NCBI GenBank assembly: GCA_001769655.1
Contig: MEPC01000020.1
Span: 62,001-126,000, forward strand
Direction of reading: 5' to 3'
From: Bacteroidetes bacterium RIFCSPLOWO2_12_FULL_37_12
Lineage (GTDB): Bacteria; Bacteroidota; Bacteroidia; 2-12-FULL-37-12
Length of the DNA: 64,000 nt
Under the pieces are notes generated by a model, which was not told where the DNA came from, searched no databases, and was given only the letters and a program-made list of their open reading frames with translations. Below, piece after piece: positions 36,859 to 39,277 of this stretch (position 1 is its first letter; each line of letters begins with the position of its first letter). The translations under genes and the position numbers were made by a program.

Positions 36859-37188
36859 TAGTACTGCCTCCCACTGCTACTGCTACTCCCTACTACTTTC
36901 ACGCAAATCAATGGGTTTCTACTTTTTACGTTCCAATTCTCACTTTTCTTCATCAATCTCAGTTTCATCAGAAGTATGTCACGCAAAGACGCAGAGTACG
37001 CAAAGAATTAATCCCGCAGAGAAAAATCATTAATGATTTTTCTCTTTGCGAACTCAGCGCCTTTGCGTGACATCTTTAATATTGCTTGGTAATCTTCTTT
37101 TAAATATGTAAATATTGCAATTTTTCATTCGCGAAAATCCGCGTACTGTTAGCGTAAATTAGCGGTTAAATTTTCTCCTTCTCACTTT
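36859..37188. other. Gap downstream of rplI with inverted element A
   Basis: Element A (third copy) occupies 36979-37070: TCACGCAAAGACGCAGAG... AATCATTAATGATTTT ...CTTTGCGTGA. The remainder is AT-rich, with no gene seen. The element may serve as a bidirectional end signal between the convergent rplI operon and the broken TPR gene. Confidence 0.75.
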
Positions 37189-38042
37189 TCACTTCTCACC
37201 TCTCCCTTTCCCTATCATCCGCCCCTTCAACACCCTCTCAAAAAACTTATGAACCGGAAATATTACTCCCGCCATGATAGCGTTTATCAATAGTTTAATA
37301 GCCGGCTCACCACCTTTTTGCCCAGTAAGTGCGGTGATCAGTTGGTCTGTGTGAGGGTCAAGCCATATCAACAGAAATTCAAACAAGAATAAAAACGGTA
37401 TAAAAACCAGTAGGTTTACAAGCCAAACTGGTAAATTAAAACGGAACGCAAAAAAGAGTAAAGCGAAAATAATAAAAATACCTACAGCAAGTAATGAGTA
37501 CTGCAAATTATTCCTCCTTTCAACAGCCACTGCCTCCTGCCGCTGTTTCTCCTTCTCCTCCTGCTCTTTCACAATGAGTTGCTTCTCAAACTCATACTTC
37601 GTCTGCTGACGAATTGCCGCCTTCTCATTCTCTTTATTTTTGATGCTGTCTCTATAGACAATGTACTGTTCATAATGCGCCAGCGCCTGCTCGTGCTTTT
37701 TCGTTTTACAGTAAATTTGAAAAAGCAAATTCTCCGCATTGCGTAAGTTTTCTATTTATAATTTTTCTTTTCTGAAATTGTCTTTGCCTGTTCACAGTAT
37801 TCCATTGCTTTTGATGGAGTGGAGAGATAATATTCGCTGGCTAATTCAAGCAAAGTATTGACGCGGGAGGTGTCGTGGGTGGTGGCAGAGAGGATAGAAT
37901 TCAGTGAATCAACAGTTCGGTTTTGTAGAGTCACGGTGCTCTGTGTCTCCTGGTTTTGCGCCGGAGCAGTTGAAATGCCGGAGAGTAAAAAATAAATAAT
38001 TAAAAAAAATATGCTATGGTTTCTCATTGCCAATCCTATCAT
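37189..38042 (-). pseudogene. TPR-containing membrane sensor-like gene, internally deleted
   Basis: The 5' part (38042 to 37752) encodes a signal peptide and one TPR-like segment (SRVNTLLELASEYYLSTPSKAMEYCEQAK) and ends in a stop after KKNYK. Just downstream, in another frame, the sequence resumes with NAENLLFQIYCKTKKHEQALAHYEQYI, a coiled coil (KQLIVKEQEEKEKQRQE), two or three membrane helices and a C-terminus known from Bacteroidota TPR membrane proteins (VFIPFLFLFEFLLIWLDP...PVHKFFERVLKGR). Most of the TPR array is missing and the two parts are out of frame, so the gene is probably dead, unless the second part is made from the ATG at 37728. Confidence 0.7.
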
Positions 38043-38156: not shown

Positions 38157-38225
38157 AATTTCCTGTACATTTGACGCAATGGACACTATATCTGCTGTGG
38201 TAATAACCCAGAACGAAGAAGCAAA
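38157..38225 (+). repeat. 69-bp direct repeat, copy 1 (duplicated promoter and 5' end of glycosyltransferase gene)
   Basis: It is about 90% identical to 39209-39277. It includes the -7 element TACATTTG (38166-38173), the ATG at 38179 and codons for xSAVVITQNEEAN. The mismatches concentrate in codons 2-5. Confidence 0.9.
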
Positions 38226-39210
38226 TGAACGGCTTTATCATGAGTTATCCCAACTTATTGAACAAAGCAAAACAAAGCTTGTATCGTATGCCAATAGCAC
38301 ATTAACCACTTTGTTCTGGCAAGTTGGCAAACGCATTAACGAGCATATACTTCAAAATAAACGTGCAGAATACGGAAAACAAATTGTGTTTACACTGTCG
38401 GCACAATTGGAAAAAGCTTATGGGCAAAATTTTACAGAGAAAAATGTAAGAAGAATGATGCAGTTTGCAGAACAATTCACAGATATTGAGATTGTCGTTA
38501 CACTGTCACGACAATTAACATGGTCTCATTTTTTAATACTGATACCGCTAAAAACAATTGAAAAAAAAATATTTTATGCTGAACTATCTGCTAATGAAAG
38601 ATGGAGTGTTCGTGAACTAAGAAAACAAATTGAAATCAAAACTTATGAAAGAACCGAAATAGCAAATACTCAATTGGCAAAATCCGGTAATATTCCTTTA
38701 AACACATTTAAAGACCCATATATTCTGAATTTTTTAGGACTGAAAGATGCATATCTTGAAAAGGATTTGGAGTCGTCTATTTTAAGAGAATTAGAACTAT
38801 TTATTCTCGAAATTGGAAAAGGATTCACATTTGTTGAACGCCAAAAACGGATGATTATTGACGGTGAAGATTATCACCTGGATTTGCTTTTCTTTCACAG
38901 AAAATTGAAACGACTTGTAGCTATTGATTTAAAATTAGGAAAGTTTCAGGCAAAAGACAAAGGTCAAATGGAGCTTTATTTGAAGTGGCTCAATCGTTAT
39001 GAAAAGCAGGAAGGCGAAGAAAAACCAATTGGTCTTATATTATGTGCCGAAACCAGCCGAGAACAAGTTGAATTGCTGGAACTGCATAAAGATGGAATAA
39101 TGGTGGCTGAATATTGGACTGAATTGCCACCCAAAAAAGAACTTGAAGCAAAACTTCATAAAGCATTGATTGAAGCAAGAGAAAATATTGAAAGAAGGAA
39201 ATTACTGTAA
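38179..39210 (+). CDS. DUF1016 (YhcG-type) PD-(D/E)XK nuclease, inserted in a glycosyltransferase gene
   Basis: The product has 343 residues. From residue ~18 on it is a standard DUF1016 protein: an N-terminal helical domain (RLYHELSQLIEQSK...LFWQVGKRINEHIL) and a C-terminal nuclease domain with FVERQKRMIIDGEDYHLDLLFFHRKL and VAIDLKLGKF, the likely D...(D/E)xK site. The first 16 residues are not from this family: they match the N-terminus of the glycosyltransferase downstream (SAVVITQNEEAN). The gene therefore uses a duplicated host promoter, start codon and 16 host codons, and its stop codon overlaps the second copy of the duplication by two bases. Function of the family is not established. 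Confidence 0.9.
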   Translation: MDTISAVVITQNEEANERLYHELSQLIEQSKTKLVSYANSTLTTLFWQVGKRINEHILQNKRAEYGKQIVFTLSAQLEKAYGQNFTEKNVRRMMQFAEQFTDIEIVVTLSRQLTWSHFLILIPLKTIEKKIFYAELSANERWSVRELRKQIEIKTYERTEIANTQLAKSGNIPLNTFKDPYILNFLGLKDAYLEKDLESSILRELELFILEIGKGFTFVERQKRMIIDGEDYHLDLLFFHRKLKRLVAIDLKLGKFQAKDKGQMELYLKWLNRYEKQEGEEKPIGLILCAETSREQVELLELHKDGIMVAEYWTELPPKKELEAKLHKALIEARENIERRKLL

Positions 39211-39277
39211 TTTCTTGTACATTTGACGCAATGGATCCACTATCTGCTGTCGTAATAACTCAGAACGAAGAAGCAAA
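39209..39277 (+). repeat. 69-bp direct repeat, copy 2
   Basis: This is the copy at the intact glycosyltransferase gene: TACATTTG at 39218-39225, ATG at 39231 and the first codons. It begins inside the stop codon of the DUF1016 gene. Confidence 0.9.

Follow-up and report, generated by a model that had tools for sequence, protein, structure and literature searches.

A DUF1016 nuclease gene between two copies of a glycosyltransferase gene start: probable insertion with a long target duplication, and similar repeats across the family

The window analyzed here is a stretch of 64,000 nucleotides from Bacteroidetes bacterium RIFCSPLOWO2_12_FULL_37_12 (contig MEPC01000020.1, positions 62,001 to 126,000 of the forward strand). 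It carries a DUF1016 gene followed by a family 2 glycosyltransferase (GT2) gene, and the longest direct repeat of the region, 69 bp with 62/69 positions identical at a spacing of 1052 bp, covers the start of both genes (Table 1). Each copy holds the box TACATTTG, an ATG five bases 3' of it and, after the ATG, codons for (M D x x) SAVVITQNEEAN, as the preliminary description had noted; the last 2 nt of the nuclease stop codon (TAA, 39208-39210) are also the first 2 nt of the right copy. The pair scored 48; under the same scoring 5,490 dinucleotide shuffles, made over 183 loci, all stayed below 18, which rules out a chance repeat. Moreover an assembly artefact is unlikely because the two copies differ at 7 positions. 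The DUF1016 gene had been described as lying in-frame inside the glycosyltransferase gene: an insertion with duplication of host sequence is borne out, but the host frame is uninterrupted and the site is the 5' edge of the gene, where the right copy restores the start of a complete PF00535 gene. The adjacent genes in the window are not restriction genes. On the minus strand, the adjoining ORFs at 37189-37728 and 37752-38042 resemble, by eye, a single TPR-type regulator gene split by a frameshift.

Table 1. Coordinates of the features at the locus, numbered from the first letter of the window
Feature	Positions	Strand	Support
Left copy of the probable target duplication, with the TACATTTG box, the ATG and the 15-16 codons that the DUF1016 gene uses	38157..38225	+	repeat search, shuffles
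TACATTTG box, matching the presumed Bacteroidota -7 element TANNTTTG	38166..38173	+	
DUF1016/YhcG-type gene, predicted PD-(D/E)XK nuclease, 343 aa	38179..39210	+	
Probable inserted segment between the copies, 983 bp, coding sequence only	38226..39208	+	
DUF1016_N domain (PF17761)	38245..38652	+	
YhcG_C PDDEXK nuclease domain (PF06250)	38704..39156	+	
Right copy of the probable target duplication, rebuilding the putative promoter box and the glycosyltransferase start	39209..39277	+	
TACATTTG box of the glycosyltransferase gene	39218..39225	+	
Intact host gene for a family 2 glycosyltransferase of 262 aa	39231..40019	+	

The window protein is a member of the DUF1016/YhcG family, with both domains scoring above their profile cut-offs: PF17761 over residues 23-158 (139.1 bits, cut-off 32.8) and PF06250 over residues 176-326 (154 bits, cut-off 32.5). 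A D...DxK motif read from the sequence (D235, D250 and K252) is likely catalytic, and these residues are apparently conserved. YhcG/DUF1016 (COG4804, PF06250) has been predicted to be a PD-(D/E)XK nuclease family (PMC1189080), and the window protein likewise has both domains and the motif. In the part of that account drawn on here, no obvious conserved neighbourhood is reported for the family and mobility is absent (PMC1189080). The closest relative found, L005, shares 83% identity in DNA and 89% in protein, with a dN of 0.067 and a dS of 1.08, and therefore the window gene is a working gene under purifying selection. The PADLOC profile of the phage-defence candidate PDC-S02 was matched with an E value of 1.2e-138, suggesting that the DUF1016 cargo is probably kept for phage defence. 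A sequence search found no relative with a solved structure, and no close relative was found on viral contigs. The genome itself (G000) is rich in single genes of mobile type (4 DUF1016, 3 RhuM, 5 Fic and 6 GxxExxY matches); its other DUF1016 genes (L002-L004) had no flanking repeat at the threshold of the survey given below.

The peptide common to the two copies identifies the source of the repeat. GT2 homologues start with M..LSVVIITxNEExNI, which is this peptide, while the SAVVITQNEEAN N-terminus occurs in no other DUF1016 gene among 190 full-length matches (L085, which matched the GT2-type N-terminus, is the window locus itself). Because the shared peptide is a GT2 N-terminus that other DUF1016 genes lack, the sequence moved from the glycosyltransferase gene to the nuclease gene, and this direction of copying is clear. 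The start of the nuclease gene, with its 15-16 codons in the left copy, is thus borrowed from the host gene, as had been proposed, and the putative host promoter would come with it. We take TANNTTTG to be the -7 promoter element of Bacteroidota; it lies within 60 bp upstream of 8 of the 41 window ORFs against 1.24 expected, so that the duplicated TACATTTG is plausibly a promoter. Across the family, DUF1016 N-termini ahead of the domain vary in length and sequence, and therefore a borrowed start probably costs little.

What was inserted appears to be narrowly bounded. DNA homology between the window and L005 starts at 38232, 6 bp past the repeat, ends on the stop codon and is absent outside, in line with the earlier remark that the gene turns into family sequence right after the repeat; the foreign part at this locus is the coding sequence alone. 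This boundary also bears on whether the locus goes back to an unrelated tandem pair of glycosyltransferase genes, one of which DUF1016 has replaced. Such an origin has a counterpart in a single survey locus, L041, but in this genome there is a single strong GT2 match of the host-gene kind, no glycosyltransferase sequence extends beyond the 69 bp, and homology to other DUF1016 genes begins 6 bp past the repeat; we regard it as very improbable. Neither of the two counter-findings listed in the preliminary description, a SAVVITQNEEAN start in further DUF1016 genes or a glycosyltransferase tandem, thus turned up. Similar boundaries were seen elsewhere: L069 and L074, whose flanks are unrelated, are 93% identical over a stretch that begins 3 bp past the domain start and finishes 12 bp short of the stop, and in the comparisons L118-L127, L189-L199 and L047-L058 homology ends exactly at the stop. 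For closely similar DUF1016 genes at different sites, DNA homology thus often stops at the ORF, and some inserts bring 100-200 bp extra on either side. By eye, the 31 insert-end pairs listed showed no shared ends or inverted repeats, and no transposase was seen with the inserts. The single coding sequence without a transposase, the lack of common ends by eye in the 31 pairs and the variable length of the duplication speak against a classical DNA transposon.

Such repeats are in excess across the family and are not unique to the window. The survey set consisted of 183 non-redundant full-length DUF1016 genes with usable flanks, mostly from one phylum, drawn from 80 relatives in a genome collection and from a phylum-wide PF06250 search; for each gene, sequence upstream of the domain was aligned with sequence downstream of the stop, at a threshold score of 18. 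Flanking direct repeats (score >=18) were found for 29/183 genes (28 once L041, where the repeat is a tandem duplication of a whole gene, is left aside), with lengths of 25-191 bp and identities of 83-96%, none reaching 100%. Under the same test the controls gave 3/233 for neighbouring ORFs, 0/29 for C5 methyltransferases, 0/30 for miaA and 0/28 for GT2, which rules out flanking repeats as a property of any gene; among further families, Fic gave 1/28 and RhuM 4/25. Fisher tests of 29/183 against 0/58 (miaA and GT2; p = 3e-4) and against 1/86 (with Fic; p = 1e-4) are indicative, since the genes share ancestry. On the other hand, ~84% of the DUF1016 genes had no detectable repeat, which counts against the target-duplication reading; therefore either repeats decay or other routes exist. 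The intergenic or unclear repeats among the 29, the tandem duplication at L041 and a probable later rearrangement at L019 count against it as well.

By reading of the alignments, and with gene names taken from sequence recognition rather than profile searches, 3' ends of upstream genes account for about a third of the repeats (HsdS at L044, glutamate dehydrogenase at L160, glyoxalase at L064) and 5' starts of downstream genes for about another third (the window, L074, L187, L210), and the remaining ones are intergenic or unclear. The preliminary description had envisaged a gene that spreads into the 5' ends of other genes and takes its start from them. Specificity for 5' ends found no support, as insertions that copy an upstream 3' end are about equally frequent, nor did a borrowed start as a general trait: most surveyed DUF1016 genes have their own start, and the only clear cases of a start codon from the repeat are the window, L074 and L070, with L019 and L185 less clean. 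DUF1016 starts that match the downstream gene do exist, the cleanest twin being L074, in which the nuclease gene opens with a copy of the next gene's ribosome-binding region and its first 10 codons. At L019 the N-terminus carries a 25-bp near-copy of the start of the response regulator gene, which looks like a second rearrangement of a site already occupied; L019, L020 and L027 have in common a DUF1016 gene before a response regulator.

Two other gene families carried repeats of comparable form. RhuM (PF13310) genes lie between direct repeats at L231, L225, L229 and L248; at L231 a 68-bp duplication comprises the ribosome-binding region and start of another gene, and the RhuM ATG is at the end of the copy. 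This parallel suggests that the pattern is not tied to the DUF1016 enzyme. Among GxxExxY (PF13366) genes, 6/29 had flanking repeats of ~37-185 bp (L375, L380, L384, L386, L389 and L396). These were judged to be a different phenomenon, as they look intergenic and at least one pair is palindromic and of CGCAAAG type; they may reflect another mode of spread. The CTTTGCG-type repeats that flank the gene in L389 are similar to an element in the window at 36976-37073, a 31-bp imperfect inverted repeat with arms 90% complementary and a CGCAAAG motif, downstream of a 148-aa ORF.

Evidence of insertion at other loci came from relatives in which the site is empty. The outer flanks of L187 (genome G145) were joined and used as query, and in G275 a single uninterrupted match covered all 748 bases. 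The 88-bp target is single in G275 but double in G145 and G318, and the flanks are 99.7-100% identical between G275 and G145 (0/500 mismatches on the left, 1/390 on the right). The two copies differ from the empty site at 4/88 and 3/88 positions, three of the four at the junction, and the insert itself differs at 15/1365 positions between G145 and G318. Because the differences of the copies roughly match those of the insert, the 88-bp duplication was probably exact when it was made. Likewise, the 3' end of a glutamate dehydrogenase gene is present once in G353 and twice in G100. Insertions analogous to that of the window thus have an uninserted relative at two loci. For L210 only occupied relatives were found, and for the window locus, whose empty site the preliminary description had hoped to read from related strains, the relatives searched are no closer than class level.

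Taken together, we consider it very probable that the DUF1016 gene of the window was inserted with a long duplication of its target, the glycosyltransferase start, and that the host gene was kept whole, the insertion having presumably arisen as at the two loci with empty sites. The left copy would drive and start the nuclease gene, giving it an in-frame N-terminal extension, and the right copy would keep the glycosyltransferase working. DUF1016 insertion is recurrent, at gene ends of either polarity and with variable duplication length, and survives where the duplicated stretch spans a gene end or is intergenic, since the host gene is then preserved. Joining may have proceeded by break repair or illegitimate recombination, through a staggered break with fill-in or through template switching. 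Because duplication length varies and no shared end sequences were seen, such a joining step, rather than a transposase acting on fixed ends, is most likely.

The 10% difference between the window copies fits an old insertion and also fits a copy derived from a donor. A ready-made donor block of glycosyltransferase start plus DUF1016, or a circle from recombination between repeats, may have recombined once into a homologous start, so that one copy is the donor allele and no new target duplication took place here. Several observations agree with this route: i) the window copies differ by 10%; ii) repeat identities in the survey are 83-96%, with none at 100%; iii) the terminator that follows the left copy in G100 does not resemble the one at the empty site; iv) the left side in G318 is a diverged allele. 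However, at the best-dated locus (G145/G275) the copies are nearly the empty-site sequence, with differences about as frequent as those of the insert itself (15/1365), and the original insertion of the donor block would still need explaining. A single recombination with a donor block is therefore an unlikely account of the window, and the donor-allele route is possible where copies differ much. The further proposals of the preliminary description, that the gene drives its own spread and that it spreads by copying rather than by single acquisition, found no support.

Insertion with target duplication leaves the cutter open, and in this it overlaps with the idea of a homing-like selfish gene, in which the DUF1016 nuclease itself cuts near gene ends and repair of the staggered cut produces the duplication. 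The unit is just the nuclease coding sequence, its active-site residues are apparently conserved, purifying selection is strong, and the insertions are repeated and independent, all as such a gene would have it. Yet no shared target sequence or insert ends were seen by eye in the 31 insert-end pairs, the same pattern in RhuM, a different family, points to a host or general process, and purifying selection is compatible with a defence role too. Moreover a gene stays whole when the duplication spans its end, so that surviving insertions are to be expected at gene ends irrespective of what makes the cut. We thus hold a homing-like gene to be improbable. Similarly doubtful is the bolder proposition that DUF1016 nucleases are autonomous single-gene mobile elements, making their own widely spaced nicks at gene ends into which repair inserts the coding sequence; if true, repair would duplicate tens of bp, so that the insert gains a promoter and start from the host gene and the latter is spared.

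Reportedly, Nobusato (2000) and Furuta (2010) described insertion of restriction-modification genes with long target duplications. According to papers citing this work, the genes are flanked by long, variable direct repeats of recipient DNA, "in the order of 100 bp" (PMC3874152), and insertion without a known transposase was recognized from occupied versus empty sites (PMC3874152, PMC1643837, PMC3031569). The DUF1016 loci share the long and variable repeats of recipient sequence (69 bp in the window, 25-191 bp in related loci), but differ from the restriction-modification cases described in that i) a single DUF1016 gene makes up the cargo, in many cases away from restriction loci; ii) the duplication lies at gene ends, where it keeps the host gene and can supply a promoter and start; iii) the pattern is found across a phylum. 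The mode itself does not require restriction-modification cargo. Homing endonucleases and free-standing homing genes copy into a specific cognate site and leave no long direct repeats; DUF1016 resembles them in being a nuclease gene that is mobile and keeps the host gene functional, but its sites vary and its repeats are long. In integrase islands the 3' end of a tRNA gene or another gene is rebuilt, and the DUF1016 loci likewise duplicate a gene end and restore the host gene, but the inserts carry no integrase and the repeats differ in sequence and length at each site.

The mode of mobility is therefore already known from restriction-modification genes, and what is new is a single nuclease gene as the unit. 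Ever since the mode received its name in 2000, it has been an open question by what means restriction and defence genes move with long target duplications but no transposase. In the present case the moving unit is reduced to one gene of ~1 kb and the pattern is present in about one in six of the sampled family members (mostly from one phylum), and the comparison of occupied with empty sites makes the mechanism directly testable. Such insertion would explain how single defence genes enter operons harmlessly and start with a foreign N-terminus.
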